Assembly: GCA_038396585.1 (NCBI GenBank)
Contig: CP121691.1
Location: 3,720,001-3,784,000, forward strand
DNA length: 64,000 bases
Direction: 5' to 3'
Source: Vallitaleaceae bacterium 9-2
GTDB taxonomy: Bacteria > Bacillota > Clostridia > Lachnospirales > Vallitaleaceae
The translations under genes were made by a program, and so were the position numbers. Positions 46,387-62,952 of the stretch are shown here, piece by piece (the first letter of the stretch is position 1; the number at the start of each line of letters is the position of its first letter). The notes beneath the pieces are model-generated. The model searched no databases and was not told the DNA's origin. It was given only the letters and a program-made list of their open reading frames with translations.

Positions 46387-46497
46387 ATTCAACCTCAACT
46401 TTACTCTATAGTCATACCCTACTATGTCATTATATACTAAAAACATGGTATAATGAAGATGATAACTATTATTAGGCAAAACAAAGGAGTGTATTTC

Positions 46498-48405
46498 ATG
46501 AAAAAACATCTTAGTTGCCTTCTCATTATCGTCATCGCTTTTAGCACAACTGTATGTACGCCCAAAGCACAGGAACGCTTCACTGACGTAGCATTGACAC
46601 ATTGGGCCTATGAATATATACACCAACTTGCTACAAAGGATGTCATCAATGGCTACCCTAACGGAGCTTTTTATCCTAATCAAGATGTCACTGCTGAACA
46701 ATTTTTAAAAATGGTCGTTAGCACCATTGGCTATCCGAACCTAAACGCATCTTCAGATGATCCCAGCCTTTGGTCCAAACCCTATATCGAAAAAGCTTAT
46801 ACCCTCGGGATAATTCAAACCCCCGATGCCTTATATAACTTAGATTGGTCCGATGCTATTACGCGTGAAGTCGCTGCCGATCTTGCCATCAAGGCAGATC
46901 ATCTTCTCCACAACACACCAAAAGATAGCATGGCGACTGAATCGAGCTACCCAATATCAGATATATACTTAATCAGCAACGCTTTAAAACCTTCGGTATA
47001 TGATGCATTTGCAAGCGGCATCATTACAGGTTATGAAGATAAAACCTTCAAGCCCAAAGGATTATTGACCCGTGCTGAAGCCAGTGCGATTATTATGCGT
47101 ATCACCAACATCGCCTTACGCCAGCCACAAGACACAACACTAGCTTTAGCACCTAGCTTACCCAAAAGCCGTGTTATCGCCATGACCGATGGCGAAGGTG
47201 ATGATCGGGCATCCATGGTCCGTTTTTTGTTCTATGCCAACGAAATGGACATCGAAGCCATTATTCAGACCAATTCATATTATCAAATCAATGGAAATAG
47301 CCAGACGACAAATGTCTACTGGCTAGAAGATGTGATTGAAGCATATGGAAAAGACCTGAAGAATCTACGTATACATGATCCTAACTATCCCGATGCCTCT
47401 TTTCTCTTAGATAGGCTATACCTAGGAGATGAAGATCCAGAGCATGTTCAAAAAAATAATGACAAAGCCATACCTCCATTTGGAGCAACACCTGGCTCTA
47501 AAAAAATCATCGAAGTGCTCCTAAATGACGACCCACGTCCAGTATGGATACAAGCTTGGGGCGGATTAAACACAGCGGCTGAAGCACTTTATGAACTTAA
47601 ATACAGTGGCAACTATAGTGCATCGGCATATAAAAAAGCGGCCGAAAAAACACGTATTTTTTCGATAACCTTTCAGGATAATAGCGGCGACTATATTCGG
47701 GAACACTTTCCTGAAGTCTTATTGATACGTAGTATGTCCTTTGATGATACCTGGGGTTATACCAACCCTCAAGACCAATGGACAGGGGAAGATTGGGTGA
47801 CAGCTTATCTCTATAAACATGGAAACCTTGCTTCAAGATATACTAAGCTTTCGATTCTTGAAGGCGATACCCCTGCTTTTCTCAACAACCTTGCTAATGG
47901 ACTACGTGCACACGAAAATCCTACCTTTGGCGGTTGGGGCGGACGCTTTTTTTCAAAAGATGGGCACTACTACACGGATGTTAAAGATGGCGGTTCTATC
48001 TATACTGCTGTTAAAAAATATATTCCTGCAGCGCAAAATGACTTTGCTGCCCGCCTAGATTGGGCAATGCATAATACCTATGCAAAAGCGAACCATCATC
48101 CGATGATTCGCCTAGATGGTCCGCGTGATTTTGTTGTTTCACCAGGAGATGATATTGAGCTTTCTGCGCGTGGAAGCTACGATCCAGATGGCGATAAAGT
48201 AACCTATACATGGGCACAGGATAAAAACGCCGGAACTTCCTCTGCCTCCATTAGCCTTCAAAACAACCACTCCTTGACAGATGCATTCTTTATTGTTCCA
48301 ACATCAGCAAAACCCGGAACTACCATTCACGTAATTCTGGAAGCTGTCGATGATGGAACCCCTCAGTTGGTACGATATGAACGCCTCATTTTTCACGTGG
48401 AGTGA
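46498..48405 (+). CDS. S-layer-homology surface protein with DUF1593 (nucleoside-hydrolase-like) domain
   Basis: A 635-residue exported protein. A signal peptide covers about the first 28 residues. Two clear SLH repeats ([40 protein letters not shown]) and a degenerate one between them occupy up to about residue 200. Then comes a DUF1593 / Sde182-type domain related to nucleoside hydrolases ([37 protein letters not shown]), followed by a C-terminal Ig/PKD-like domain ([20 protein letters not shown]). SLH domains attach it to the cell wall. AAGGAG lies before ATG 46498; the frame extends 15 codons upstream. The substrate is unknown. The end overlaps the convergent kinase gene by 13 bases. Confidence 0.88.
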
Positions 48406-50003
48406 AAGTGCTCAACAGCTGCCCGCTCAATATCTAACCCGTTGACATAGTATCGCATAAACTGTTCAAAGCCTTCCACATCTTCGATAACAGGATCTAT
48501 GCGCGTTGACTCTTGCTGCGAAAATACTTGTGTATCTAAAAAGGATTCTAATCGCTTATCTTGCTTAGCATAGTCAAGATAAGCGGCCAATATGGCAATC
48601 CCCCATGCTCCACCTTCTCCAGCCGTTTCCATGACTTCAACCGGAGCGTTGACCGCCGCCGCCATTAAGCGTTGGCCGACGCCAGGCGTCTTAAATAAGC
48701 CTCCATGACCTAACATCTTATCCAGAACCACTTTTTCTTTTTTTAACAATATATCTGTCCCTATTTTCATAGCACCAAGTGAGGTCTGCAAGTGCACACG
48801 CATAAAGTTAGCAAGACTAAACGTGCTGTCAGACAAACGTGTAAATAAGGGTCTTCCTTCTTCAAATTTTGTGATGTGTTCACCCGAGAGGTATCCATAG
48901 GCAAGAAGGCCTCCCCCATCTGCCTCCCCTTCAAGTGCTTTGTTATACAAGGCTTGATAAAGTGTCGTCTTATCTATAGATGCACCAAAAAGTTGTCCGA
49001 CTTCATCAAATATATTCACCCATGCATCCAAATCCGAAGTACAGTTGTTTGAATGGGCCATCGCAACCAATTTTCCTGATGGTGTCGTCACAAGGTCAAG
49101 CTCTTTATAGACTCTGGATAATTCGTTTTCAAGTACGACCATGGCAAAAATAGATGTTCCTGCAGATACATTACCCGTGCGTTCAGCGACACTATTTGTT
49201 GCTACCATTCCTGTCCCCGCATCACCTTCTGGTGGGCATAGCGGAATATCCCCGCAAAGTTCTCCACTTGGATCGATTAATCTAGCGCCTTCTGGTGTAA
49301 GCGTTCCTGCATCCTCTCCCGCAACTAAAGTTTTTGGTAAGATGTCGCCTAACTTCCATGCAAATCCTTTTCCCGATATATGTTCATCAAATGCTTCAAT
49401 CATCCGTGGATGAAAGGTTTGGTGATGAATATCAATCGGAAACATCCCTGATGCGTCGCCAATGCCCAAAACTTTATTCCCGGTTAGCTTCCAATGAACG
49501 TATCCTGAAAGCGTCGTTATGTAGTCAACCTCACGAACATGTTCTTCTTGATTAAGAATCGCTTGATATAGATGAGCAATACTCCATCGCTGGGGTATGG
49601 GATAATTGAATAAATCCATCAATTGCACAGAAGCCTCTTGTGTAATATTGTTGCGCCATGTCCGAAAAGGAACTAATAGGTGTTCATGCTTATCAAAAGC
49701 CAAGTATCCATGCATCATGCCACTGATTCCCATCGCCTTGACGGTCGAAAGTTTTGCTCCATAGCGTTGATTTACATCCTTTTTCAAAGCTTTATAGCTC
49801 TCTTGAAGCCCGTTCCATACCTCGTCCAGTGTATATGTCCAAATCCCTTGTTCATAAGAATTCGTCCATGCATGCTCACCTGATGCAATCGGTTTATAGT
49901 CCGTATCAATAAGCACAGACTTGATACGTGTTGAACCCAGTTCAATCCCAAGAACAGCCTTCCCCTCTTGGATCCTATGTTTAATCATTTCACTTTGATT
50001 CAT
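48393..50003 (-). CDS. FGGY-family carbohydrate kinase
   Basis: A 536-residue sugar kinase of the FGGY family. Phosphate motif 1 is [18 protein letters not shown], phosphate motif 2 includes [15 protein letters not shown], and the adenosine region is [20 protein letters not shown]. It is longer than typical xylulokinase and closer in layout to ribulokinase-like members. It closes the operon of a ribose-type ABC importer and a polyol-type dehydrogenase, so it probably phosphorylates the ketose that the dehydrogenase makes. The open frame starts 11 codons earlier; AAAGGAG 6 bases before ATG 50003 supports the later start. The exact sugar is unknown. Confidence 0.9.
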
Positions 50004-50032
50004 GCTTTTCTCCTTTGCCCTAGCTTGTATGA

Positions 50033-51100
50033 TCAAGGTACTAACAAGACTTTGATAACACTTCCGCTAAGTGCCAACTCAAAAGCTTCTGTAAACGCTT
50101 CCAACGGATATTGTGCTGCAACGATATCATCTGCTGTGACTAACTTACGCTTTAATAAATCGATAGCGACCGGATATGTATAGGGTCCCAAATGTGAACC
50201 GCGTATATCCAGTTCTTTACGGTCTCCAATTACACTCCAATCCGTGGTTGTCTCTTTTCCAAAGACACTAAATTCAACAAAACGTCCCAGTTTTCGAATC
50301 ATTTCCAAGCCTTGTGTTACCCCAATCGGTGATCCTGTTGCCTCAATATATACATCACAACCATATCCTTGTGTTAATGCTTTGACCTCGCTAATGGCAT
50401 CTGTTTTTTGGGGATTAATGGTTATATCTGCACCAAGTTTTTTCGCCATCGCCAAGCGCTCATCACTAACATCTAATACGATTAACGTCTTTGGTGTCTT
50501 TAAGCGTATAAGCTGAACCATACATAACCCTAAGGTTCCTGCGCCTGCAAGAACGACAACATCTTCATATTCTATGGTTGCCCGTTGCACCGTGTGCACT
50601 GCACATGCTAGAGGCTCAATAATACTAGCTTCTTCAAGTGAAAGTTCTTTTGGAATCTTATAGATTTTACTTACATTGTAGATCTTCATGTATTCTGCCA
50701 TTCCACCATCAGCAATACCACCTTGGAATCCATACATATCATGAACTTCACACATCCAATATTGACCCGATTGACAGAATCGGCACTTTCCACAGGGCTT
50801 AATTTGGTCGGTTATTATACGATCTCCGATTTGTATATCATATTTTTCAGCGGCACCTTCACCTAATTCAACGACGGTTCCAAAGAATTCATGTCCCGGT
50901 ATAACCGGTGCCTTCATCCATGGATTTTCTCCACCCCAAAACATACTGGCGCCATGATACGCTTTCATATCACTGCCGCATATCCCACAGGCACCGATTT
51001 TAATAATGACTTCTTCAAATCCGGCTTTTGGAATATCTACACTTTCAACTTTGTAATCTTCTGGTCCATAGGCTACCACTGCTTTCATTTTTTCGCTCAT
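50033..51100 (-). CDS. Zinc-dependent polyol dehydrogenase (erythritol/threitol dehydrogenase-like)
   Basis: A 355-residue medium-chain dehydrogenase. Catalytic zinc ligands are C in [11 protein letters not shown] in IPGHEFFG and E in [10 protein letters not shown]. The structural zinc site is the four-cysteine cluster in [16 protein letters not shown], and the NAD-binding Rossmann motif is [10 protein letters not shown]. The segments [14 protein letters not shown] and [20 protein letters not shown] resemble dehydrogenases annotated as acting on erythritol or L-threitol. It should oxidise an imported polyol to a ketose for the FGGY kinase. AAGGA precedes the ATG. The substrate assignment is by resemblance from memory only. 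Confidence 0.88.
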
Positions 51101-51135
51101 TATCTTTTCCTTCTTTCTTCGTTATATAGAGTTGA

Positions 51136-52125
51136 TTAGTCACGTTTTCTACTACTTAAATAAACTGCTGCAATAATGATAAGCCCCTTAAATATTCGTT
51201 GAATATAAGGCGATACACCAATCAGATTAAGCCCATTGGTCAAGACGCCAAGCATGACGGCTCCAATCAAGGTGCCCACAATATGTCCGCGTCCACCGGC
51301 AATATCTGTTCCACCAAGAACCACTGCGGCGATTGCATCCAGTTCAAAACCTTCTCCTGCCATGGGTTGTCCTGACATGAGACGGGATGTGATAATGGTT
51401 CCCCCAATGGATGCTGTGATTCCACTAATAACAAAGGGGAGAATAATATATAACTTGGTCTTAATTCCTGATAGTCGAACAGCCTCTTCATTGCCTCCAA
51501 TAGAGTATATATAGCGCCCCATTGCTAAATGATTCAAGATAATATAGGCTAAAATATAGACAATCGCCATAATCACTACAGGCACCGGAACAACACCGAG
51601 TACATATCCCCGCCCAATAATTGAAAACTGATCTGGTAAACCATTAAGCGGATAACCGCCTGTATAAAGTAAGGCAAGTCCTCTAGGAATTTGCATCATC
51701 GCTAGGGTTACAATAATTGCAGGTAACTTTGCAAAGGCAATCAAGACACCGTTAATCGTTCCAAAAAGTGCACCAATAAGAATTCCCAACAAAATCGCTA
51801 CGCCAATAGGCATGCCAAAATCTGCCATTGCCGCTGCCATCATTGTTCCTGAAAAAGCCATAATCGATCCAACCGATAGGTCAATTCGAGAGCTAATAAT
51901 CACAAAGGTCATCCCAGTTGCCAATATAGAATTAATCGTGACTTGTCTTAATACATTACTAATATTGGATGATGTTAAAAATTCAGGAGAAAAAAGCGCC
52001 ATGACAATACACAAGACGACCAGTGCAGTGATGGTAAACATCATCGGTTCATCAAAGAGTTTCTGTATTATGGATCGTAATGCTGCTATTTGACTATTTG
52101 ACTTTCTTTTGCTCGTATTATCCAT
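51136..52125 (-). CDS. Ribose-type (RbsC-like) ABC transporter permease
   Basis: A 329-residue permease with eight to ten membrane segments of the RbsC/AraH family. Recognisable segments are RIDLSVGSIMAFSGTMMAA, GTINGVLIAFAKLPAIIVTL and VVLGGTDIAGGRGHIVGTLI. The open frame extends 17 codons upstream into the ATPase gene; GGAGGTAAGCAAA before ATG 52125 gives the preferred start, which overlaps the ATPase stop by 8 bases. It forms the channel of the importer with the RbsA-type ATPase. Confidence 0.92.
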   Translation of the reverse strand: MDNTSKRKSNSQIAALRSIIQKLFDEPMMFTITALVVLCIVMALFSPEFLTSSNISNVLRQVTINSILATGMTFVIISSRIDLSVGSIMAFSGTMMAAAMADFGMPIGVAILLGILIGALFGTINGVLIAFAKLPAIIVTLAMMQIPRGLALLYTGGYPLNGLPDQFSIIGRGYVLGVVPVPVVIMAIVYILAYIILNHLAMGRYIYSIGGNEEAVRLSGIKTKLYIILPFVISGITASIGGTIITSRLMSGQPMAGEGFELDAIAAVVLGGTDIAGGRGHIVGTLIGAVMLGVLTNGLNLIGVSPYIQRIFKGLIIIAAVYLSSRKRD

Positions 52126-53632
52126 TTTGCTTACCTCCAGTAGCATAGTACATGATTTCTTCCTGGCTTGTCTCATCTGTAATCAGCTCACCTGTAATGC
52201 TTCCACCATAAACGGTCAGCACGCGGTCACTGACACCTAATACCTCCGGTAGTTCTGAAGATATCATGATAATCCCCAAACCTTCATTTGCTAAATCACG
52301 CATTAATTTATGAATTTCATATTTTGCTCCCACATCAATTCCGCGAGTCGGTTCATCAAAAATCAAGATATGACAATCTGTATTCATCCACTTGGCCAGT
52401 ACAACCTTTTGCTGGTTTCCACCACTCAGATTTTTTACTTTTTGCATTAGATGGGGTGTTTTGATATTGAGTGAATCAATATATTTTTTAGCAATTTTAT
52501 TTTCATCACTTTGTTTTCTAAATCCAAATCGACCACATGATTTTTTCATGTTGGACAATGTAATATTATCCTTTACAGTTGCCTCAAGGATAAGTCCCTG
52601 TGTCTTTCTATTTTCAGGCACAAGACCAATACCATAGTTTAGCGCTTGATGCGGCGAATGAATCGCTACAGGTTTATCCTCTAATAGTACTTGCTTACTC
52701 TGTGCACGATCCGCGCCGATAAGTAGACGAATAAGTTCTGTACGTCCTGCACCTACAAGACCTGCAATACCAAGAATCTCTCCTTGTCTTAATTCAAAGC
52801 TTGCATTCTTTACATATTTTCCTCGATTAAAATTACGTGCCTTTAATATGATTTTATTTTTTTTGATACTGTCATATGGTGGCTTTTGAGGGTATTGATT
52901 GTCACCTAACTCTCGCCCAACCATCATTCGGACAATGTCTTTTGCAGTTACATTTTTGACCAAATCCGTTCCTGCAAAAATTCCATCCCTTAGGCAAGAA
53001 AATCGGTCACAAATTTCAAAAATCTCATTCATATGATGGGATATAAAAATCATCGTTACGCCATCTGCTTTGAGTTTCTCAATCAGTTCAAAGAATTTCT
53101 TTGTCTCACCTTCGGTTAAACTGGCTGTCGGTTCATCCATAATTAATACTTGCGGATTCTCCATGAGTGCTTTGATAATTTCAACGATTTGCTGTTGCGC
53201 TACGGTTAAACGATCAACCGGTATATCTAGATTAACTTCCACTCCGATTTTATCTAGAAGCTTTTGTGCCTGACTTTTCATCTTTTTGCGATCTAGAATC
53301 CCTGAAGATCTTTTTAATTCCTTGCCAAGAAAAATATTCTCATAAGCATTTAAATACGGTACAAGACTAAATTCCTGATGAATAATGCTAATTCCAAGCT
53401 TCTGGGCTTCTTTTGGATCCAAGATACTCATCGGTTTGCCTTTAAATAAAATAACGCCTTCGGTCTGTTGGTAGATTCCAACTAGTATCTTCATAAGCGT
53501 GGATTTACCCGCTCCATTTTCTCCGACGAGTGCATGAATCTCTCCTGCATATATATCTAACGTCACGTCATGAAGTGCCGTCACCCCAGGAAATCTCTTG
53601 GTAATATTTTTAATTTCTAGTATTTTCTCCAA
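52118..53632 (-). CDS. Ribose-type (RbsA-like) ABC transporter ATPase, two ABC domains
   Basis: A 504-residue ATPase with two ABC domains. The first has intact motifs: Walker A VGENGAGKST, C-loop RLTVAQQQIVEI, Walker B LIMDEPTASL, H-loop FISHH. The second has the usual weaker Walker A of this family (GLVGAGRTEL) but good LSGGNQQKV and FDEPTRGIDVG. It powers import by the RbsC-like permease. The start is TTG at 53632, after AAAGGGGG. Its first domain is a natural reference for the degenerate ABC domain fused to the histidine kinase 2 kb upstream. Confidence 0.93.
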   Translation of the reverse strand: MEKILEIKNITKRFPGVTALHDVTLDIYAGEIHALVGENGAGKSTLMKILVGIYQQTEGVILFKGKPMSILDPKEAQKLGISIIHQEFSLVPYLNAYENIFLGKELKRSSGILDRKKMKSQAQKLLDKIGVEVNLDIPVDRLTVAQQQIVEIIKALMENPQVLIMDEPTASLTEGETKKFFELIEKLKADGVTMIFISHHMNEIFEICDRFSCLRDGIFAGTDLVKNVTAKDIVRMMVGRELGDNQYPQKPPYDSIKKNKIILKARNFNRGKYVKNASFELRQGEILGIAGLVGAGRTELIRLLIGADRAQSKQVLLEDKPVAIHSPHQALNYGIGLVPENRKTQGLILEATVKDNITLSNMKKSCGRFGFRKQSDENKIAKKYIDSLNIKTPHLMQKVKNLSGGNQQKVVLAKWMNTDCHILIFDEPTRGIDVGAKYEIHKLMRDLANEGLGIIMISSELPEVLGVSDRVLTVYGGSITGELITDETSQEEIMYYATGGKQNG

Positions 53633-53667
53633 GAAAACACCCCCTTTTTAGTTATGTGAAAAGTGAG

Positions 53668-53695
53668 GATGTATAGCGGAAAACCGCTATACATC
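53668..53695. repeat. Intercistronic hairpin between binding-protein and ATPase genes
   Basis: A perfect 12-base stem GATGTATAGCGG and its complement around an AAAA loop lies between the binding-protein stop and the ATPase start. There is no T run directly after it, so it probably stabilises the upstream message or slows read-through. Confidence 0.75.
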
Positions 53696-53703
53696 TATAG
53701 GTT

Positions 53704-54711
53704 TTACCAAGTAAATCCTTCTGCATTTTCTTTTGTCAGTTTTTTCACTTCAATCGGCATCACTTCTGGAACAATCGATCCCCAGTATTTTGCAAGAGCA
53801 ATCCCCAAACCAATACGTACTTGGTCGCGTGGGAATTGTGCCACTGTACATTTAAAGATGTCACCGTTTAAGATTGCATCGACCGCTTCTGGATGTCCAT
53901 CCACGCTATATAAGCCAATATCTTTTTGCGCTGACTCAATCGCTGCCAAAGTTCCAAGGGCTCCACCATCATTGACACTAAAAATCGCAGAAAGGTCTGG
54001 ATGTGCCTGCATCATGTTCTCTGTAACGGTCATTGCTTTATCTCTTTCTTGCTGACCATTTTGATTGTCAACGATTTCAATTCCCGGATAATTTGCAACG
54101 GCAGCTTTAAACCCTTCAACACGCTCAAGAATTGGAACCACCGGAATACCGTTTAAGATAGCAACTTTTCCTTCTCCACCTAAGTCTTCTGCCATTTGCT
54201 CTCCTGCCAAATAACCTGCATCATAGTTTTTGGATCCGGCAAAAGAATCAATGGGTCCATTTGCCTGCGCATCAATCGCAACGACAATAACACCCGCATC
54301 TTTGGCTTGAATAACTGCCGCTTCAACGCCTACACTATCCGTTGGGTTGATCAAGAGTATATCAATCTCTTTTTGAATCATATCTTCAATATCACTAATC
54401 TGTTTGTTCACATCATGCGATGCATCTGTCGTGATAGCCGTAGCACCAATCGAAGCACACGCTTCTTCAAAAGCTTCGTGCATCGTTACAAAATATGGGT
54501 TATCCATGTCTTGAAACGACATCCCTATAACAAGATCACCCGTTGCATTTGCACTGCCTGAACCGCTATCATCTGTTGATGCATCTTGCTTAGCTGTTGT
54601 TCCTGAAGTTTCATCTTTACCTGAACCGATTGGTTCTTGTGTACATCCGCTAAGTACGAGTGCCAATACTAATATCATTGCTACCATAATTCCAAAACGT
54701 GTTCTTTTCAT
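53704..54711 (-). CDS. Ribose-type sugar-binding lipoprotein
   Basis: A 335-residue periplasmic-binding-protein-like lipoprotein. The lipobox is LSGC (C23), a Ser/Asp/Gly linker runs to about residue 58, then an RbsB-type two-lobed domain starts at DLVIGMSFQDMDNPYFVTM, with TDSVGVEAAVIQAKDAGVIV and FSVNDGGALGTLAAI later. It delivers a sugar or polyol to the RbsA/RbsC-like importer. AAGGAGAGATAAGCA precedes the ATG. The leader upstream contains tandem hairpins and a terminator that probably control the whole operon. Confidence 0.93.
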   Translation of the reverse strand: MKRTRFGIMVAMILVLALVLSGCTQEPIGSGKDETSGTTAKQDASTDDSGSGSANATGDLVIGMSFQDMDNPYFVTMHEAFEEACASIGATAITTDASHDVNKQISDIEDMIQKEIDILLINPTDSVGVEAAVIQAKDAGVIVVAIDAQANGPIDSFAGSKNYDAGYLAGEQMAEDLGGEGKVAILNGIPVVPILERVEGFKAAVANYPGIEIVDNQNGQQERDKAMTVTENMMQAHPDLSAIFSVNDGGALGTLAAIESAQKDIGLYSVDGHPEAVDAILNGDIFKCTVAQFPRDQVRIGLGIALAKYWGSIVPEVMPIEVKKLTKENAEGFTW

Positions 54712-54819
54712 TGCTTATCTCTCCTTTGATTTTTTTAGTTGGTGTTGAACGCGTAACTATCCCCACAAGCCTCCTTTCATACTTGCTACATTGTTAACTT
54801 TAAATGCCTTTAACGTGTC

Positions 54820-54877
54820 AAAAAAAGCCTTACAGATTTGTGAATGATGTGTCATCACAAATTATCTGTAAGGCTTT
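54820..54877 (-). terminator. Attenuator-like intrinsic terminator in the transporter operon leader
   Basis: On the minus strand AAAGCCTTACAGA pairs with TCTGTAAGGCTTT; after a 3-base bulge TTTGTGA pairs with TCACAAA; then a T run follows. It lies between the response-regulator stop and the binding-protein ATG, about 110 bases before the latter. Its 5' arm includes the 3' arm of the second UUAUG-loop hairpin, so the two structures exclude each other. A TTGACA at the end of the T run could also start new transcripts, but its -10 (TTAACA, 18 bases on) is weak. Confidence 0.88.
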
Positions 54878-54886
54878 CATAACCTT
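54870..54886 (-). promoter_or_regulatory. Second UUAUG-loop hairpin (P2) of the transporter leader, antiterminator
   Basis: AAGG and CCUU enclose the 9-base loop UUAUGAAAG. The CCUU arm is also part of the terminator 5' arm, so formation of this hairpin would prevent termination. It lies 4 bases after the first hairpin of the pair. Confidence 0.65.
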
Positions 54887-54890
54887 TTTC

Positions 54891-54911
54891 AAATGCCACT
54901 CATAAGCATTT
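54891..54911 (-). promoter_or_regulatory. First UUAUG-loop hairpin (P1) of the transporter leader
   Basis: AAAUGC and GCAUUU enclose the 9-base loop UUAUGAGUG. It begins 7 bases after the response-regulator stop codon. The tandem arrangement with the next hairpin resembles RNA targets of ANTAR antiterminators, and an ANTAR protein is encoded directly upstream. Confidence 0.65.
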
Positions 54912-54917
54912 TGTATT

Positions 54918-55493
54918 TTATTTTTGAATTAATTCATTGGCTTCGATAATTTTTTCGGCTAATGTTGCCATCTTGATATTTTTATCTCGGCTCATCTTTT
55001 GAAGCTTTTTCATCGCTTCATGTTCTCGCAAATGATGATTTTCCATCAAAATTCCTTTGGCCCTCTCGATGTACTTACGGTCTTCATACTTTTTTTCCGT
55101 TTTTATCAGCTGTTGTTCGATATTTTTATAATCTAAAAATCTGCTATTACTTGTCTGTATCGCCACTTTGATGTCTTGTTTGGATATAGGTTTAATTAAA
55201 TATGCATATACTCCAACTTCATTGGCTTTCTTGACTAATTTTTGATCATGGTATCCGCTAACGATAATACTGGGGATCGATAGTTTTTCATTGATCTGTC
55301 TAAGTGCATCAATACCATTAATAATAGGCATATTGATATCCATAATAACCATATCCGGTTTTTTTTCTAGTACCTGCTTAACTGCATCCTTACCATCTGT
55401 TGCTTCTCCAATTACTTCATGTCCTAGTTCTTCCAGATTCGCTTTGAGTCCCATAAGTGAAATATACTCATCTTCAGCAATAATAACCTTCAT
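54918..55493 (-). CDS. Response regulator with receiver and ANTAR RNA-binding domain
   Basis: A 191-residue antiterminator. The receiver domain has the acidic pair at E7/D8, phosphoacceptor D52 in VIMDINMP, S79 and K101 in YLIKPIS. A coiled helix leads to a C-terminal ANTAR domain (RKYIERAKGILMENHHLREH, then EAMKKLQKMSRDKNIKMATL). ANTAR proteins bind tandem RNA hairpins and block terminators. The open frame starts 8 codons earlier; AAAGGGGATTTT lies before ATG 55493. It follows the kinase gene by 23 bases and precedes a leader with exactly such hairpins. It is the cognate partner of the ABC-kinase fusion. Confidence 0.93.
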   Translation of the reverse strand: MKVIIAEDEYISLMGLKANLEELGHEVIGEATDGKDAVKQVLEKKPDMVIMDINMPIINGIDALRQINEKLSIPSIIVSGYHDQKLVKKANEVGVYAYLIKPISKQDIKVAIQTSNSRFLDYKNIEQQLIKTEKKYEDRKYIERAKGILMENHHLREHEAMKKLQKMSRDKNIKMATLAEKIIEANELIQK

Positions 55494-55516
55494 AAAATCC
55501 CCTTTCATTAAAACCA

Positions 55517-57400
55517 TTATCTGCCTAAAAAAATTCTTTCCGAATCTAATCTGATATTAACTTTTGCACCTGAATCATTGGTAAATTCAATAACGCCTTT
55601 GAATTCATTCTTGATCATGGATGTTACAATGGTCAACCCTAAACTTTTGTCTTTTTCTATATTAAAGTTTGGGGGAAATCCTTTTCCATTATCATGAATC
55701 TGAACATAGACTCCATTATGTTTTTTATATCCCAATATCATGACTTTTTTGTTCATATGCACCTGATCTGTAAATGCATATTTGTTACAGTTACAAATCA
55801 ATTCATTAATCAATAAAGCAATCGATGTCGCTTTACTATAGGGTATAAACATATCTTCAAAATCCACTTCTATATCCACATCGGATTCCAATTCTGAAAA
55901 TTCAATGATGACACTAATAAGCTCTTTGATATTGATGATACTGCGTCCCAATTGATCTTTTGATAACAAATCATGGACAGCGGCAATACTTTTAATTCTA
56001 GAAATCGTATTATCCAATATATTTTCAACTTCATTCTTATATTCTTGACTGATATATCTTTTTTGCAAGGCAATATAGCTGCTGATTGCTTGTAAATTGT
56101 TTTTTATTCGATGATGGCTTTCTTGCAGCATCGCTGAACGTCCGATAAGACGCGTATCTTCAATAGATATTGCCGCCTGTTGAGCAAATGCCATTAAATA
56201 TTTTGCTTCTTCTTTTGAATGTACGTATGTTTCCTTATAAAAAATCTGTATAACACCTGCCACTCTTGAGCGAATACTTAACGGGACACAGATAAGGGTT
56301 TTAACTTGTCCTTTTTCTTTAAAATACGAACAAAATTCTTTATCACGATGATTCGAGTAAAATAGCGTATCTTCATCCAATAGCTGAAAAACAAAGTCTT
56401 CACGAACTTTTACATGCAAGGGTTCATCCTTATGATATACGTAAGTATCAATTTTTGTACGTGTACTATAATCTAACAAATCAATACACGTCCCATCACA
56501 ATTCATGGCTTTTGACACACTTTGAGCTAAAAACAACAGAACGTCCTTTAATTCATACTCGGAAGTTAAAAGTTCAGCTGCTCGAAAAACACTATTGAGT
56601 ACCTCTTCATTTTCATCATATTTTATATCCAGATGACTATCTTGAACACTATTATCTTTTTTAAAACTATAACTATCCAAAAGGCGAAGAAGTTTACGCG
56701 GATCATTTTTAGCTTCTGCTGCTGTAAATTTACCTACGCTTTTACCTTTTGACAATACTGAAATATTATCAGCAATCTTTAATGCTTCTTCCCAGTTTTT
56801 TGTTACATAGATGACACTGCCTCCATGCCGCTTATATTCTTGTAAAATTTTAAATAGTGTCGAGACTTTTGATGTGCTTAAGTTTTCTGTCGGCTCATGT
56901 AGGACAACCAGCTGCGGGCTATGCATAAATGTCTTGGCTATTTCTAATAACTTGCATTGCTCTTGTGTCAACCTTGCTACTTTTTCTTTGACATGGATAT
57001 GTATATTCAGATGCTGTAACACTTCTTCTGATTTTTTCTTGATTTTTCTCCAATGGATAAATTGTGTTCCTCGAATTTTGGGCAAACGGTTCAGCCATAA
57101 GTTCTCAGCTACCGTCAAATGACGAACCAAAGAATTTTCTTGAAATAAAAAGGCTATATCTTGATTCGATCGATTCAATAAGGACTTGGGGCTTAAGTGC
57201 TGACCATCGTAAAACACTTGTCCTTCTTCCAGGGGTGTAATCCCCGCCAACACAGATACAAACGATTTTTGTCCGGAATTATTTTCACCGACGATAACAT
57301 GTATCTCACCTCGTTTTAATTCAAGGGAAATATTTGAAATTTTAAATCCATCAGGACTTTGCCCTGCCAAGTTAACAACTTTTAATATTGTATCTGACAC
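55517..57400 (-). CDS. Fusion of degenerate RbsA-like ABC domain, GAF domain and HisKA_2 histidine kinase
   Basis: A 627-residue cytoplasmic protein. Residues 1-240 align with the first ABC domain of RbsA, but the catalytic motifs are altered: Walker A reads VGENNSGQKSF (the invariant Lys is Q44), the C-loop LTQEQ, Walker B VVLHEPTENL (Asp is H168), and the H-loop His is K201. The Q-loop Q87 is kept. A GAF domain spans about 265-415. The HisKA_2 dimerisation helix ESHHRIKNNLQAISSYIALQ has phosphoacceptor H430. The HATPase domain shows N532 (LLINELI), HDNGKGFP and SLGLTIV. The start is GTG, with TTGGAGA 8 bases upstream. No membrane segment is present. It should phosphorylate the ANTAR regulator encoded next; the pseudo-ATPase may dock on the transporter (inference). 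Confidence 0.92.
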   Translation of the reverse strand: MSDTILKVVNLAGQSPDGFKISNISLELKRGEIHVIVGENNSGQKSFVSVLAGITPLEEGQVFYDGQHLSPKSLLNRSNQDIAFLFQENSLVRHLTVAENLWLNRLPKIRGTQFIHWRKIKKKSEEVLQHLNIHIHVKEKVARLTQEQCKLLEIAKTFMHSPQLVVLHEPTENLSTSKVSTLFKILQEYKRHGGSVIYVTKNWEEALKIADNISVLSKGKSVGKFTAAEAKNDPRKLLRLLDSYSFKKDNSVQDSHLDIKYDENEEVLNSVFRAAELLTSEYELKDVLLFLAQSVSKAMNCDGTCIDLLDYSTRTKIDTYVYHKDEPLHVKVREDFVFQLLDEDTLFYSNHRDKEFCSYFKEKGQVKTLICVPLSIRSRVAGVIQIFYKETYVHSKEEAKYLMAFAQQAAISIEDTRLIGRSAMLQESHHRIKNNLQAISSYIALQKRYISQEYKNEVENILDNTISRIKSIAAVHDLLSKDQLGRSIINIKELISVIIEFSELESDVDIEVDFEDMFIPYSKATSIALLINELICNCNKYAFTDQVHMNKKVMILGYKKHNGVYVQIHDNGKGFPPNFNIEKDKSLGLTIVTSMIKNEFKGVIEFTNDSGAKVNIRLDSERIFLGR

Positions 57401-57432
57401 GCATTGTTCTCCAATCGTATAAAAATTACAAT

Positions 57433-57479
57433 AAAAAACACCTATCTATTGTCACATTTGTAATATGACATGTAGTAGG
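57433..57479 (-). terminator. Attenuator-like intrinsic terminator in the kinase operon leader
   Basis: On the minus strand CCTA and CTA pair with TAG and TAGG around a one-base bulge; then TGTCATATT pairs with AATGTGACA (9 pairs, one G-U) around an ACA loop; then TGTTTTTT follows. It lies between a consensus promoter and the kinase GTG. The first CCTAC is shared with the second UUAUG-loop hairpin, so the two exclude each other. Confidence 0.8.
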
Positions 57480-57493
57480 CATCCATAACCAAC
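57475..57493 (-). promoter_or_regulatory. Second UUAUG-loop hairpin (P2) of the kinase operon leader, antiterminator
   Basis: GUUGG and CCUAC (one U-U mismatch) enclose the 9-base loop UUAUGGAUG. Its 3' arm is the first part of the terminator stem. It lies 5 bases after the first hairpin, nearly the same spacing as in the transporter leader. Confidence 0.62.
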
Positions 57494-57498
57494 ACATA

Positions 57499-57517
57499 TT
57501 CACCAACCATAAGTGAA
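57499..57517 (-). promoter_or_regulatory. First UUAUG-loop hairpin (P1) of the kinase operon leader
   Basis: UUCAC and GUGAA enclose the 9-base loop UUAUGGUUG. It would form about 16 bases after the expected transcription start. The loop matches those in the transporter leader in seven of nine positions. Confidence 0.65.
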
Positions 57518-57539
57518 TTATTTCTCAACTTCTGTACAA

Positions 57540-57568
57540 ATTATACAATGGCTATAATGAATTGTCAA
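57540..57568 (-). promoter_or_regulatory. Consensus sigma-A promoter of the kinase / response-regulator operon
   Basis: TTGACA, a 17-base spacer and TATAAT match the consensus exactly on the minus strand. Such a strong promoter followed by a terminator and antiterminator hairpins fits control by antitermination rather than by initiation. Confidence 0.92.
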
Positions 57569-57622
57569 CACATTTTTTAAAATTCTTGTCAAACACGCAT
57601 CAAATACTCTTAATTTGCTCAG

Positions 57623-57654
57623 AAAAAAACCCCTGAATCATTGATCCAGGGGTT
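57623..57654 (-). terminator. Intrinsic terminator of the cold-shock gene
   Basis: AACCCCTG and CAGGGGTT pair on the minus strand with a further ATCA/TGAT pairing inside, followed by a T run. It lies about 25 bases after the stop codon. Confidence 0.92.
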
Positions 57655-57677
57655 AAGCGTCTATATATTATAAATAA

Positions 57678-57875
57678 TTATAGGCTAACTACGTTTTCAG
57701 CTTGAGGGCCTTTGTTTCCTTCAACTACGTCGAATTCTACTTTTTCGCCTTCTTCTAAAGTTTTGAAACCGTCTTTTTGGATTTGTGAGTAATGTACGAA
57801 TACATCATTTCCTTCGTCTGAAGTGATAAAACCAAATCCTTTGTCTCCATTAAACCATTTAACTGTTCCTGTCAT
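57678..57875 (-). CDS. Cold-shock protein, CspA family
   Basis: A 65-residue OB-fold protein with both RNA-binding motifs: [11 protein letters not shown] (RNP1) and DVFVHYSQI (RNP2). It binds single-stranded RNA as a chaperone. GGAGG lies 10 bases before the ATG. The leader is about 100 bases or more, as is common for csp genes. The fatty acid desaturase gene lies just upstream in the same direction, which could be a cold-adaptation pairing. Confidence 0.96.
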
Positions 57876-57989
57876 AATAAATTACCTCCGAATTTTTATT
57901 TCCTTGATTCATTTGTAACATAAAACTATAGCTTTCTTTCAATAAAAATTCAGCTGATAATTTGATACACATAATACAAGGTTGATTTA

Positions 57990-58017
57990 ATCATACACTA
58001 TTTTCAGAAAAAATCAA
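57990..58017 (-). promoter_or_regulatory. Candidate promoter of the cold-shock gene
   Basis: TTGATT, a 16-base spacer and TATGAT lie on the minus strand about 115 bases before the ATG, leaving a long leader. The match is good but not perfect. Confidence 0.55.
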
Positions 58018-58072
58018 GTCTTTTTAGCAAATTTGTATGATTTTTTCTAAATTTCCTTCAAAAAAATGAGTA

Positions 58073-59074
58073 TTAATTATAGTTTTCCCTCAATTTTAAT
58101 TCTTGGAAGGAAATTAACCGTTTTCTTTTTTGATCATATATTTGTAATAAGGCCAGTTTTAAACTCTCTTTAAAGCCAACTGTCTTGACACCTTGCAACT
58201 CATTTATACTGTAATAACACTTCTTCAGATGATAGTTTGGAATTCGTGAATTCAAGTGATGAATATGATGGTAGCCAATGTATCCACTAAACCATTCTAA
58301 AATGGATGGAAGCTGATAGAATGTACTTCCCTTTAACGCGGCATCGACACTATTCCATTCACTGGCTTCTTCCCAGTAGACATCTTCAAATTGATGCTGT
58401 ACGTAAAACATCCACACGCCGATGGATCCTGCAACAAACATCACCGATAGCTGAATCAAAAGATAGGCTTCTATACCAAACATCAAGGACAATACGATTG
58501 CTTGTACCAAAATTCCAACATTTGTAACTACATAACCGATATGCTCTTTTTGAGACGCATGTTTTGTTGGAAAACGTTGTAGAATGGTAAAAAGAAAAAT
58601 CGGTGCCACGCCAAAAAGAAATAGCGGATGTCTAAACAACCGATACCAACCTTTCATTAATACAGGCTGTGCCTTATATTCTTCAACCGTTAACGTCCAT
58701 ATGTCCCCTGCGCCTCTTCGATCAAGGTTACCTACTGCGCCATGATGGATATTATGATCTTTTTGCCAGGCAGGATATGATGTAAATGTGAGAATTCCAA
58801 AGAAAAATCCAAGCCTTCGATTCCATTTTTCACTAGCGGTAAACGATTGATGCGTACAATCATGGAAAAGGATAAATACGCGAACCATAAATAATCCATT
58901 TAAAATTATTAAGGGAATCAGAACAAACCAACTCACCTGTGCTTTATATAGATACATGGTAAACATTAATAAAGCTATATATACTACAACTGTATTCATT
59001 ATCTGACTGATAGCTTTTTTTAGACTCGGTGTTGCAAAAGGTTTTAACTGTTGATTCCATTCTTTTCTTGTCAT
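58073..59074 (-). CDS. Membrane fatty acid desaturase (di-iron, three histidine boxes)
   Basis: A 333-residue membrane enzyme with the three histidine boxes of acyl-lipid desaturases: HDCTH (H71, H75), HNIHH (H107, H110, H111) and HHIHH (H269-H273), with hydrophobic pairs between them. Such enzymes use oxygen and a di-iron centre to put double bonds into membrane lipids. AAAGGAG precedes the ATG. The promoter carries a Fur-type box, so it may be turned off when iron is plentiful. A desaturase needing oxygen is surprising if the organism is a strict anaerobe; it may be facultative, oxygen-exposed, or use the enzyme otherwise. Confidence 0.93.
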   Translation of the reverse strand: MTRKEWNQQLKPFATPSLKKAISQIMNTVVVYIALLMFTMYLYKAQVSWFVLIPLIILNGLFMVRVFILFHDCTHQSFTASEKWNRRLGFFFGILTFTSYPAWQKDHNIHHGAVGNLDRRGAGDIWTLTVEEYKAQPVLMKGWYRLFRHPLFLFGVAPIFLFTILQRFPTKHASQKEHIGYVVTNVGILVQAIVLSLMFGIEAYLLIQLSVMFVAGSIGVWMFYVQHQFEDVYWEEASEWNSVDAALKGSTFYQLPSILEWFSGYIGYHHIHHLNSRIPNYHLKKCYYSINELQGVKTVGFKESLKLALLQIYDQKRKRLISFQELKLRENYN

Positions 59075-59118
59075 AATATCTCCTTTACGATAATATGTAG
59101 TATTGATAACTACTTATT

Positions 59119-59147
59119 ATTGTAATGGTAATGATTATCATTGTCAA
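59119..59147 (-). promoter_or_regulatory. Sigma-A promoter of the desaturase gene
   Basis: TTGACA, a 17-base spacer and TACAAT lie on the minus strand about 45 bases before the ATG. The spacer is almost entirely taken up by a Fur-like box. Confidence 0.88.
59126..59145. promoter_or_regulatory. Fur box inside the desaturase promoter
   Basis: TGGTAATGATTATCA matches the 7-1-7 Fur consensus TGATAATNATTATCA in all but one defined position. The wider GGTAATGATTATCATTGTC matches the 19-base consensus in 17 positions. It lies between the -35 and -10 boxes, so a bound Fur-family repressor would block RNA polymerase. Confidence 0.85.
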
Positions 59148-59241
59148 GCTTTTTTGACTTTTTTTACCACATCATTTCCCCTTTATTGTATTCTCTTTTA
59201 TCTCCAGTTGACGAAAAATCCTAATCACAATCTATATTGAT

Positions 59242-59269
59242 TTGATTTCATTCCAATCAATGATATAAT
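59242..59269 (+). promoter_or_regulatory. Candidate promoter of the receiver/AraC gene
   Basis: TTGATT, a 16-base spacer and TATAAT lie on the plus strand about 80 bases before the ATG. Confidence 0.55.
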
Positions 59270-59352
59270 TAAAAGCAATGATATACAAATATGTTGCACC
59301 ATATTATGAAATCTACCTTAACAACTATAATGGAAGCATATAGAGGGGAAAA

Positions 59353-60768
59353 ATGACGACTGTATTGATAGTTTCGGAAAACAGGAAATTTTTAAAAAAC
59401 ATATGTGAAACACTTGTTGAATACGAAAACATAGTGATAAAAATAGTAAACTACAGTACAAGTGCCTTTGATGCTTTTGTGTCGCATAAACCTGATGTGA
59501 TCATCATTGATTCTCTTATTATGATACCTCTGCATATTTTATTGAATGAACTTAAACAATGCCGTTGGCCATTTTCTATTCTCATTTATGGTGAAATAAA
59601 AGAGCTAGCTAATTGGAAAGATCTTAATATTAAATGCATTGAAAAAAAAGATCTACAAGAGGTGGGACGTATCATACTCGATACTAAAACTCAAGCATTA
59701 AGCGCTACTTTAAAAACTTCTACATATAACTCAACGAAAAAATTAAAAAGTGAATCCTATTTCATTACACCTGAATATTATCACATCCTAATATCCAAAT
59801 ACGTTGGACATGACAATGTTATTCATGATGACACTCTAAAAAAATTGAACCAACATATAGATACTTTAGGAAATCCCGAAATTTTTAATGTTTTAAATCA
59901 AGATATCATCATAGCCTTTAAACAATCTGACATCAAAATATCTAATGCCCTTAATAAAGTCCATTCTATTATAAAATATTATATCAGCCCTAATTATGTT
60001 TCCATATACGCAAAAAAGATTCGGTGGGATAATGTGAATAGTATTTGTATGGAATTATTAACCGCTACAGATTTTTGTTACTTTTTTCATGGCGAAAGTG
60101 TCAACTATACCTTAATGACTGAGCGACTCAAAAAAAGTAGCTTTCAAAAGAATATTTATTTTATAACTGATATTTTTACAGATATCATCAAAAATGACAT
60201 CGTATCATTGAAGGAACGCTTAGCCAATATTTATTTGCATAACATAAAAGCCACCTTAGATAACGCTTCTTTACGTCATTTTAGAGACACACTAACTTTT
60301 GCAAATGCTTTTTTCTCTAAAATGCTTACGCTTCCTCTTGAACGGCATAATACAAACTATATATCTATAGAAAACGAATTTGAAGATGTATTAGATGCAT
60401 TTGTTACATTGGCAACAAAGCTTAACGAGTTAAAATTTTCTGATATTGTCTCAAATGCCATGATTTATTCATTTCAACATTATGGTGAAGAATTATCCTT
60501 ACAAGATATAGCGAAGGCTCTTTCTGTATCAAAGATGCATTTAAGCCGGGTCTTTAAGCTACAAACACATATGACCTACTTAGAGTTTCTACAAGGCTAT
60601 CGCCTTTTTATAGCCAAGGAACTGTTGATAAATGATCAAAGAATGATTAATGAAATCGCTGCTATGACAGGTTACGAAGATTCACGATATTTTTCAAAAA
60701 TGTTCAAAAAGAATGTAGGTATCTCTCCAAAAGAATATCGGAGCAAACATCAAAATGGCATATTCTAA
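59353..60768 (+). CDS. AraC-family regulator with degenerate receiver-like N-terminus
   Basis: A 471-residue regulator. The first 115 or so residues follow the receiver fold (TTVLIVSENRKFLKNICETL, KPDVIIIDSL, FSILIYGEI, KCIEKKDL). The aspartate in VIIIDS is kept, but the acidic pair that holds the metal ion is replaced by Ser-Glu (VSENRK). A long middle region with no named domain leads to a C-terminal AraC double helix-turn-helix (LSLQDIAKALSVSKMHLSRV, MINEIAAMTGYEDSRYFSKM). GAGGGGAAAA precedes the ATG. It is followed in the same direction by a dehydrogenase gene 49 bases away, and probably controls this and the transketolase genes. Confidence 0.85.
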   Translation: MTTVLIVSENRKFLKNICETLVEYENIVIKIVNYSTSAFDAFVSHKPDVIIIDSLIMIPLHILLNELKQCRWPFSILIYGEIKELANWKDLNIKCIEKKDLQEVGRIILDTKTQALSATLKTSTYNSTKKLKSESYFITPEYYHILISKYVGHDNVIHDDTLKKLNQHIDTLGNPEIFNVLNQDIIIAFKQSDIKISNALNKVHSIIKYYISPNYVSIYAKKIRWDNVNSICMELLTATDFCYFFHGESVNYTLMTERLKKSSFQKNIYFITDIFTDIIKNDIVSLKERLANIYLHNIKATLDNASLRHFRDTLTFANAFFSKMLTLPLERHNTNYISIENEFEDVLDAFVTLATKLNELKFSDIVSNAMIYSFQHYGEELSLQDIAKALSVSKMHLSRVFKLQTHMTYLEFLQGYRLFIAKELLINDQRMINEIAAMTGYEDSRYFSKMFKKNVGISPKEYRSKHQNGIF

Positions 60769-60817
60769 CTCTTATAAAAAAAATATGCATAAACATACTA
60801 TGTAAGGTGGATGAACT

Positions 60818-61837
60818 ATGAAAGCATTCGTTAGAACGAAAAATAAAAATATATTACTCAACGAAATCCCGGAAGTCTTTATATTAAATGATAACGAAGT
60901 GAAAATCGCTTTGGAATACTCTTCATTTTGTCGCGATGATATGCGATTTGAAGATGATAGTGATATATTTTCTTATATTGGTACGCTTGGTCATGAAGGC
61001 GTTGGTCGAGTTACAGAAGTTGGCAGCGCTGCTTTTTATAATGGATTTAAGGTCGGTGACAGAGTATTAATTATCCCATGGCATTTTTGTGGTGAATGCG
61101 AGATGTGCCTGGAGCAAAAAATTCATTATTGCGCAGAAGCACATATAGCCATGGGAACCATGGCACAATATGTTGTAAGAAAATATACGCATTTAATAAA
61201 AATTCCAGATAAGATGACTTATAAACAGGCTATATTAATTGAGCCTTTGGGATGTGTTTTAGAAGGAATTAGTAAGCTGGATATTGATTTTGATAAAGAA
61301 GTATTAGTCATAGGCGCTGGACTCATAGGAATAATATTTATTCATTTACTTAAAAAAAAGGGCGTTAAAAATATTACGGTTATTGAACCTATTCCAGAAA
61401 GGCAAAAACTTGCTAAAGCCTTTGGAGCCGATAATGTCATTGATTTAAACAGCTCCAATCTACAGTTAAAACTTTCAGAATTCAGTAATTTTAGAGGATT
61501 TGACATTGCCATTGAAACATCATCGAATATTCAAATGCTTAAAGAGGCTACAAATACTTTGACCAAAGGCGGAACACTAATGATTTTCACATACTATGGT
61601 AGTTCAGAGCATATAACATTTTCCGCATTAGATATGTATGCTTCAAATTTAAGTGTCATTTGGTCTAGTTTTTGTAGCCTTCCTAATTTTTACAAATCAA
61701 TTGACATTATTATGCGAACAAAATTTGATTCGCTGATTACAAAAGAGTTTGATTTCAAAGATATAACCAAAGCGTTAGAAAAGTTTAAAACTTTTGATTA
61801 CATAAAAATAGGCATTAAGAATTTTAATCTTCTTTAA
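60818..61837 (+). CDS. Zinc-binding medium-chain alcohol/polyol dehydrogenase
   Basis: A 339-residue medium-chain dehydrogenase. Catalytic zinc ligands appear in SSFCRDD and TLGHEGVG with E in LIEPLGCVLEG. The structural zinc cluster is CGECEMCLEQKIHYC, and the cofactor-binding motif is VIGAGLIGIIFI. It oxidises or reduces a sugar alcohol or similar compound with NAD(P). AAGGTGGATGAACT precedes the ATG. It lies after an AraC-type regulator and before split transketolase genes, and a terminator follows. It differs clearly from the dehydrogenase at 50 kb. Confidence 0.9.
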   Translation: MKAFVRTKNKNILLNEIPEVFILNDNEVKIALEYSSFCRDDMRFEDDSDIFSYIGTLGHEGVGRVTEVGSAAFYNGFKVGDRVLIIPWHFCGECEMCLEQKIHYCAEAHIAMGTMAQYVVRKYTHLIKIPDKMTYKQAILIEPLGCVLEGISKLDIDFDKEVLVIGAGLIGIIFIHLLKKKGVKNITVIEPIPERQKLAKAFGADNVIDLNSSNLQLKLSEFSNFRGFDIAIETSSNIQMLKEATNTLTKGGTLMIFTYYGSSEHITFSALDMYASNLSVIWSSFCSLPNFYKSIDIIMRTKFDSLITKEFDFKDITKALEKFKTFDYIKIGIKNFNLL

Positions 61838-61865
61838 ATTTTATAATCCGTTCTTTATCGATTAT

Positions 61866-61892
61866 GGACTCCTTTTATCGGGGTCCTTTTTT
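61866..61892 (+). terminator. Intrinsic terminator after the dehydrogenase gene
   Basis: GGACTCC pairs with GGGGTCC (one G-U pair) around a 7-base loop, followed by six T, 29 bases after the stop codon. Confidence 0.8.
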
Positions 61893-62031
61893 ATATCTAT
61901 ATTTATTTTTCTCTAAATGATAGTTATACATAATACTCCTAGCACATCAATAAATTCACCAAATAAAACACGCAAAAATTAGAACATCAATATATTCCAC
62001 CTTTATATATACCTCAACTATATATCGTTCA

Positions 62032-62060
62032 TTGAGAACATTCGTTGAACTTTATATAAT
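62032..62060 (+). promoter_or_regulatory. Sigma-A promoter of the transketolase operon
   Basis: TTGAGA, a 17-base spacer and TATAAT lie on the plus strand about 40 bases before the transketolase N-subunit ATG. Confidence 0.8.
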
Positions 62061-62098
62061 AAAAAGCACACGAATAACTTAATTTTAGGAGGTTTGTT

Positions 62099-62923: not shown

Positions 62924-62952
62924 TAAAGCAATCGAAGAAAAGGAGATATTTT

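Follow-up and report, generated by a model that had tools for sequence, protein, structure and literature searches.

A fused sensor kinase is encoded beside an ANTAR regulator and a sugar importer

We examined a stretch of 64,000 nucleotides from Vallitaleaceae bacterium 9-2 (contig CP121691.1, positions 3,720,001 to 3,784,000), hereafter the window, in which a histidine kinase joined to an ATP-binding cassette (ABC) domain is encoded next to a receiver-ANTAR regulator and a ribose-type importer. The protein-coding features, in window positions, are as follows.

55517..57400, minus strand: sensor kinase, 627 aa, single open frame; approximate parts are a pseudo-ABC domain (about residues 4-240), GAF (268-420) and HisKA_2/HATPase (421-627)
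54918..55517, minus strand: receiver-ANTAR response regulator (Pfam Response_reg and ANTAR)
53704..54711, minus strand: RbsB-like sugar-binding protein (Pfam Peripla_BP_4; NCBIfam)
52118..53632, minus strand: RbsA-like two-domain ATPase (Pfam ABC_tran, two stretches; the first domain keeps the motif residues checked)
51136..52176, minus strand: RbsC-like permease (Pfam BPD_transp_2; NCBIfam)
50033..51100, minus strand: zinc-dependent dehydrogenase (Pfam; NCBIfam)
48393..50036, minus strand: FGGY carbohydrate kinase (Pfam; NCBIfam)

The first-pass annotation of this DNA had described the sensor kinase as a single protein of 627 residues with ABC, GAF and HisKA_2/HATPase parts, and one open frame on the minus strand (55517-57400) indeed encodes all of them. 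Pfam places ABC_tran at residues 22-171 (E 3e-21), GAF at 291-413 and HisKA_2 at 427-499 (4e-15), and HATPase_c at 525-620 falls marginally below its cut-off (26.3 against 26.4 bits). The neighbours it had named, a receiver-ANTAR gene and an RbsB/RbsA/RbsC-type importer with dehydrogenase and kinase, are likewise borne out by Pfam matches on the same strand; the dehydrogenase and the FGGY kinase reach no NCBIfam model cut-off. The imported sugar could be a pentose or pentitol, at a guess. Translation of the regulator may begin at the ATG at 55493, where the ribosome site looks better by eye.

The signalling residues are preserved across the fusion kinases and regulators of the genomes described below. 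All 16 fusion kinases have their H-, N- and G2 boxes intact, G1 reads DNGxG in 15 and DDGVG in G1045, and the phospho-accepting receiver Asp aligns in 17/17 regulators. In a simple hydropathy scan, in which some values are borderline, the maximum over 19 residues is 1.54 for the window kinase, 1.26-1.75 for the 16 kinases and 2.69 for RbsC. The fusion kinase is probably soluble.

The fusion recurs in ten genera

The kinase gene is found at 100% identity in G011, the second genome of the window species, which excludes an assembly error. Searches with the whole protein or with its GAF-kinase part recovered the fusion in 17 genomes from 10 genera and 6 families: the window species (two genomes), G014 of the same family, G169 and G457 of the same class, and, elsewhere in the phylum, G1124, G1241, G1311, G1045, G1337, G1366, G1367, G1377, G1370, G1375, G1378 and G1374. 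Its recurrence in 17 genomes likewise rejects an assembly artefact. The architecture, for which the first-pass annotation had proposed a database search, occurs with ANTAR regulators and RbsABC-type operons well beyond the window species. None of the outcomes named there as refutation was found; the fusion is present in relatives, does not result from misassembly, and its homologues do lie beside transporters.

The fusion is rare nonetheless. The family yielded 3 genomes with it among 22, the class sample 2 among 391, the order 3 among 344 and the order to which G169 belongs 2 among 347. Of 329 genomes sampled across the phylum 10 matched, 6 of them with the ABC part. In the large samples 3-6 candidates were scored per genome, so these frequencies are lower bounds. 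A contig search with one protein gave matches only within the window species. Spread on plasmids was considered and rejected, as none of the 5000 best-scoring records covers 80% of the protein.

This rarity, together with two broken copies (the G1241 kinase and a third copy in G1366), would be expected of an artefact or of a decaying fusion of two genes. We regard that explanation as scarcely credible, since 16 frames are intact in six families and the ratio of nonsynonymous to synonymous substitution (dN/dS) in the ABC part is 0.11-0.13 in all three pairs of the trio G1370, G1374 and G1375, indicating that the ABC part is maintained there and is not decaying. Other pairs are uninformative in this respect: G169/G457 differ by four changes (ratio 0.26) and G000/G014 are saturated.

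The G1241 kinase gene (L048:8566-10419) is interrupted within the ABC part, and its regulator, leader and importer are present. Stops break the extra kinase copy of G1366 (L063:8184-9488); around it lie the genes of a further CUT2 importer, of AraA/AraD-like proteins and of an FGGY kinase, as well as a dehydrogenase gene that is shortened.

Importer genes accompany kinases with the ABC part and not those without it

We compared neighbourhoods at 18 loci, namely the window and 17 others, from six families; the broken copy at L063 is the eighteenth, and the G011 locus was not annotated. Genes of a CUT2 (RbsABC-type) importer lie near the fusion in 18/18 loci. The receiver-ANTAR gene adjoins the kinase gene in 17 of the 18, preceding it in G169 and G457 and following it elsewhere. 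Among these 17 loci, 15 hold both RbsA- and RbsC-like genes; at the other two (G1124, G1367), where the contig ends, only the RbsC-like gene is seen. The catabolic cargo varies from locus to locus and includes dehydrogenase with FGGY kinase, AraA/AraD-like proteins, an AraF-like binding protein, a glycyl radical enzyme and transketolase, some of these being names that we presume from the look of the sequence.

As controls we took 20 of 24 relatives whose kinases are of the same type and have no ABC part (omitted were G132 and G077, with very long frames, G298, on a short contig, and G313). An RbsA/B/C set lies within about 9 kb in 0 of these 20 loci, six of which have shorter flanks because contigs end. 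Two control loci (L111, L112) carry other ABC ATPase frames, with 31-68 bits to RbsA and no RbsB or RbsC match. An ANTAR-regulator match is present in 18/20 control loci, in one case inside the kinase frame itself, and many of these loci we take to be ethanolamine operons.

The proposal that fusion, ANTAR partner and importer operon make up a self-contained system therefore holds up well, given the importers in 18/18 loci, the ANTAR genes in 17/18 and the leaders before the importer that are described below.

The window genome has a second ANTAR gene (L002:1087-1659), with no fusion kinase within its 3.1-kb stretch; the gene preceding it is presumably a glutamine synthetase. On the plus strand near the system lie what we take to be an AraC-type regulator, with a receiver part guessed from the sequence, and a split transketolase (59353-60768 and 62099-63966). 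A split transketolase also lies directly 3' of the importer in G1366. At 57625-58027 on the minus strand a cspA-like thermoregulator RNA scores 70.1 bits against a gathering score of 78, and the gene beneath it is presumably of the cold-shock type.

The ABC part resembles an importer ATPase that has lost catalytic residues

The nine best NCBIfam models for the window ABC part all describe importer ATPases with two domains; eight concern sugars and the ninth putative vitamin B6 import. Each is matched over its first half only and under its curated cut-off. The solved relatives among the best 60 of 163 are ABC ATPases. Thus, the label "RbsA-like ABC domain" given by the first-pass annotation stands as to kinship with CUT2 ATPases and needs refining as to extent: the kinase carries a single ABC domain, versus two per chain in the CUT2 importer ATPase RbsA.

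In the window protein the Walker A Lys is replaced by Q, the Walker B Asp by H and the switch His by K. Similar replacements recur among the 16 intact fusion proteins, affecting the Walker B Asp in 14 (His in 11), the switch His in 15 (Lys in 10) and the Q-loop Gln in 12. The Walker A Lys is replaced in five of them, the Walker B Glu in none of the 16, and the Walker A motif is wholly gone in G169, G457 and G1124. In this table the near-copies G169/G457 and G1370/G1374/G1375 are counted singly, and G1241 and the broken G1366 copy are left out. Importer ATPases of the same loci keep Walker A Lys and Ser, Q-loop Gln and Walker B Asp and Glu in 15/15, and the switch His in 14 of 14 that are readable. 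New residues have become fixed in the ABC part, T200 and K208 in 11 of 11 distant members and W203 and K150 in 10 of 11. Some alignments and tests use shortened or reduced sets: the 260-residue limit shortened the A_G1045 sequence, and G457 and near-copies were dropped.

These comparisons are best explained by a pseudo-ATPase, the ABC part being kin to the first of the two ATPase domains in importers of the CUT2 class (ribose/xylose/arabinose-type). Alternatively, the domain might still bind nucleotide and report the ATP/ADP energy charge, gating sugar import. The Walker A Lys in 11/16 and the Walker B Glu in 16/16 would suit such a role, as would G1045, which retains Lys, Gln, Asp, Glu and His. 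We nevertheless consider it improbable, as the Walker B Asp is gone in 14/16, the switch His in 15/16, and the gene has been retained in the three genomes that lost Walker A altogether.

In a tree of ABC domains one clade (100/99) gathers 13 of the 15 from kinases, a second (100/98) the first halves of the importer ATPases and a third (100/100) their second halves. No kinase ABC domain groups with the importer ATPase of its own locus, so the fusion was not made locally from each RbsA, and repeated independent fusion with the local RbsA was rejected on this tree, in which G1045 and G1337 lie outside the kinase clade without a firm position. Kinase and importer trees share the groups G000/G014, G1311/G1377 and G1366b/G1370/G1374/G1375/G1378. 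In both, G1377 groups with G1311, which belongs to another genus, and not with its genus-mates. Distances in the ABC part and in RbsA correlate over 12 loci (Mantel r 0.90). Together these patterns suggest that kinase and importer travel together.

Within the kinase genes of L066 and L067 the GAF and kinase parts are near-identical (synonymous divergence, dS, 0.39 and 0.14), and the ABC part has a dS of 0.96, as though recombination had exchanged the N-terminal portion.

RNA leaders of the ANTAR type precede the importer operon and the kinase gene

Two leaders, each with a pair of hairpins (P1 and P2) and a terminator, flank the kinase and regulator genes.

57540..57568, minus strand: consensus sigma-70 promoter TTGACA-17-TATAAT, 12/12 matches, upstream of the kinase leader
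57476..57518, minus strand: ANTAR-type two-hairpin leader (P1, P2) before the kinase gene, covariance model 46.0 bits
57432..57490 (approximate), minus strand: intrinsic terminator before the kinase gene, overlapping the P2 3' arm
54870..54911, minus strand: ANTAR-type two-hairpin leader before the importer operon, covariance model 45.5 bits
54822..54880 (approximate), minus strand: intrinsic terminator before the importer operon, overlapping the P2 3' arm

Kinase gene, regulator and leaders together span less than 3 kb. P1 of the importer leader starts 6 nt past the stop codon of the ANTAR gene and is followed by P2, whose 3' arm doubles as the 5' arm of the intrinsic terminator. Folded at full length this leader forms P1 and the terminator; shortened, it forms P1 and P2. 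Upstream of the kinase gene comes its leader, and before that the sigma-70 promoter (57568-57540); no other perfect -35/-10 site occurs in 54600-57700. Since the importer leader follows the ANTAR stop codon so closely and the only perfect promoter lies upstream of the kinase, the importer is probably co-transcribed with the kinase and regulator genes, although a weaker promoter may lie between them. The first-pass annotation had spoken of the importer as the next operon; its genes do adjoin, and in the window they probably have no transcription unit of their own.

An alignment of 17 leaders supports the hairpins. Of its cells 90.7% are paired, compared with 73.4% after shuffling and at most 49.7% when slid, the rows having been trimmed to the hairpins, which favours pairing, and those of G000_imp and G1367 being partly out of register. 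All six P1 pairs show two-sided changes, with a covariation of 0.511 versus 0.192 in shuffled alignments (0/500). P2 is less informative, with three nearly invariant pairs out of five and another that does not form in 7 of the 17. The overlap with a terminator, scored with no shuffled control, holds for 17 of 19 leaders at the original minimum distance and for the remaining two once that distance is relaxed. P1 is unconvincing in the G1337 leader. By eye, the P1 loop has A at position 1 in 17/17, and its position 4 is G in 12 and A in 5. In the P2 loop about half have G at position 4 (by eye), and loop sizes in the folds are 5-7; the ANTAR criterion is a six-base loop with A1 and G4. No Rfam match for the leaders was obtained up to E 1 in 45000-64000.

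We searched 40 genomes with the covariance model, scoring 150 candidates per genome. All 20 matches at E<=1e-5 lie at fusion loci, in 15 of the 17 fusion genomes and in 0 of 23 relatives without the fusion, and at most about 7 kb from the kinase (farthest in G169 and G457). Weaker matches in G018 (E 3.7e-4) and G013 (E 5.5e-4) were discarded, since they run antisense within an open frame. We also rejected a regulon at other places in the genome, both window-genome matches at E<=1e-5 among the 150 candidates scored being those described here.

As in the window, the kinase gene has its own leader in G014. A third G014 leader (L044:8430-8474) stands before an AraD-like class II aldolase gene. Tandem P1-like hairpins precede P2 in G1241 (L048:11182-11259) and G1367 (L064:4515-4596).

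A circuit in which a pseudo-ATPase may couple a kinase to its importer

We favour, with somewhat better than even confidence, a sugar-uptake antitermination circuit in which the kinase is coupled through its pseudo-ATPase to the neighbouring importer, most likely by docking onto the permease dimer or by pairing with the importer ATPase. The state of transport, perhaps together with a GAF ligand, would set autophosphorylation of the kinase, and the phosphate would pass to the receiver-ANTAR protein. This protein would then bind P1/P2 in nascent leaders, hold P2 and block the overlapping terminator, allowing read-through of the importer operon and, in the window, also of the kinase and regulator genes, a positive feedback. 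Studies of ANTAR systems describe how phosphorylation favours the dimer of the regulator, which holds the hairpins and prevents termination (PMC3369931, PMC3369936, PMC8934654); phosphotransfer from kinase to regulator and binding of the RNA would proceed here by analogy. The antitermination circuit itself is well supported.

The first-pass annotation had proposed that the kinase follows the state of a matching transporter through its ABC part. Such a role, still conjectural, would be consistent with the linkage to importers, with the relatedness of the domain to their ATPases and with its lost catalytic residues. In the hydropathy scan the kinase shows no strongly hydrophobic segment, and we infer that a relative of the permease-docking ATPase would be its obvious route to the pump. 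A kinase dimer would present two ABC domains to a permease dimer. In a more specific form, which we put forward tentatively and as somewhat short of an even chance, this dead copy of an importer ATPase, doubled by the kinase dimer, would serve as a decoy motor seated on the dimeric permease and convert transport state directly into phosphorylation and antitermination, so that a feedback loop closes on the pump; the kinase would then represent a new class of transporter reader.

The same docking would serve a kinase that acts on the importer, its pseudo-ATPase displacing or locking RbsA and thereby controlling uptake, with antitermination as a second output. An importer-ATPase homologue beside an importer suits this idea. 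The intact kinase and the leaders point instead to control of expression, and we give an action on uptake very little credence.

The main rival places the sensor elsewhere. The GAF domain would bind a cytoplasmic ligand, either the sugar taken up or a metabolite, the pseudo-ABC domain would help only dimerisation or folding, and the rest of the circuit would be unchanged. GAF is present, and its mean pairwise identity of 46% exceeds the 36% of the ABC part, which also evolves faster than the kinase part (51%). HisKA_2 kinases without an ABC part are found beside the same kind of regulator (18/20 controls), and the test for docking by cognate similarity, given below, was negative. Left unexplained are the kinship with importer ATPases and the importers themselves, present in 18/18 loci with the ABC part as opposed to 0/20 without it. 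We therefore hold a GAF-only sensor to be rather unlikely, while ranking it first among the alternatives.

Several observations weigh against the favoured circuit with its coupling through the pseudo-ATPase, in addition to the prospect that GAF is the only sensor. The ABC part is not closer to its cognate importer ATPase than to non-cognate ones (permutation over 10 loci; p 0.14 for the whole domain, 0.36 for the presumed interface, 0.62 for the first 80 residues). Its identity correlates better with that of the kinase part (r 0.95) than with that of RbsA (0.90; partial r 0.48), so the agreement of the trees reflects joint inheritance and not contact. The Q-loop Gln is mostly lost. ATPase residues are not lost everywhere, since G1045 and G1337 keep the Walker A Lys and Walker B Asp, and G1045 in addition the switch His and Q-loop Gln. 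Because of these two genomes the kinase ABC rows of the tree do not fall on one side of a branch and need two changes. In the trio, dN/dS is higher in the ABC part (0.11-0.13) than in the kinase part (0.02-0.04). Around the broken G1366 copy at L063, importer genes lie at a distance of about 4.6 kb, and the genes listed include no ANTAR regulator. As for the leaders, 17 of the 20 strong matches are training sequences and the other three come from the same species or near-copies, so that only the absence from 23 other genomes is independent; G1124 gave no match (its contig ends) and G1337 one at E 0.98 only. Finally, structure prediction from an alignment of few rows gave a mean confidence (pLDDT) of 35 and a predicted template modelling score (pTM) of 0.27.

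Comparison with known systems

Importer activity is usually inferred from metabolites. Here a probe is seemingly built from a relative of the pump motor and wired to an RNA switch, and the cassette recurs with different catabolic genes. If coupling through the pseudo-ATPase is true, a pseudo-ATPase gains a regulatory use in a modular device linking uptake to expression. Among the matches listed in a search of titles and abstract starts of open-licence literature, we found no description of an ABC-ATPase/histidine-kinase fusion with ANTAR, which leaves its absence unproven.

The closest relative is EutW/EutV, whose kinase EutW is of the HisKA_2 type and in which we know of no ABC domain. Like the system described here it has a kinase partner, a receiver-ANTAR regulator and paired hairpins, the second overlapping a terminator (PMC3369931, PMC8934654). 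It differs in its target, which here is a sugar importer, and the ABC-less relatives have no CUT2 importer nearby (0/20). The loops here read TNAWGR, with G at position 4 in only part of the set (by eye), unlike EutW/EutV. The CUT2 ATPases RbsA, XylG, AraG and MglA have a first ATPase half homologous to the ABC part, which in contrast is a single domain, fused to a kinase, with its catalytic residues mostly lost.

Sensing through a transporter has looser precedents for the role that we infer for the ABC part. In BceS-BceAB a histidine kinase likewise stands beside an ABC transporter and reads its activity (PMC6978683); BceS is described as an intramembrane-sensing kinase (PMC3023708) that contacts a transporter driving efflux (PMC6978683). 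Here, by comparison, the importer-ATPase homologue lies within the kinase and the output is antitermination. We know of no ATPase part fused to the kinase in Pst-PhoU-PhoR. There the sensor kinase takes its state from an ABC importer (PMC6978683). Its regulator, unlike the one here, binds DNA.

Kinases of the SLC5/STAC kind (CbrA, CrbS, RpuS) share with the fusion a transporter-derived part joined to a histidine kinase, that part being a solute symporter domain and not an ATPase subunit (PMC9100948). A Pfam scan of the window kinase gave no SLC5 symporter domain. In XylFII-LytS and CuaD-CuaSR a second solute-binding protein senses for a kinase that controls importer genes; the sensor there is an outer binding protein separate from the kinase, whereas here it would be an ATPase homologue, fused (PMC10384115). 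ANTAR targets near sugar transporters are also known from actinobacteria (PMC8164766).

Kinases reading exporters, symporters, phosphate importers and sugar-binding proteins are thus known, and the system described here, if true, would add a fused ATPase homologue as reader. AmiC resembles transporter binding proteins, and to our knowledge AmiC/AmiR includes neither a histidine kinase nor an ATPase part. Its likeness to the present system is that of an ANTAR antiterminator placed under a nutrient-binding partner protein (PMC3369936).

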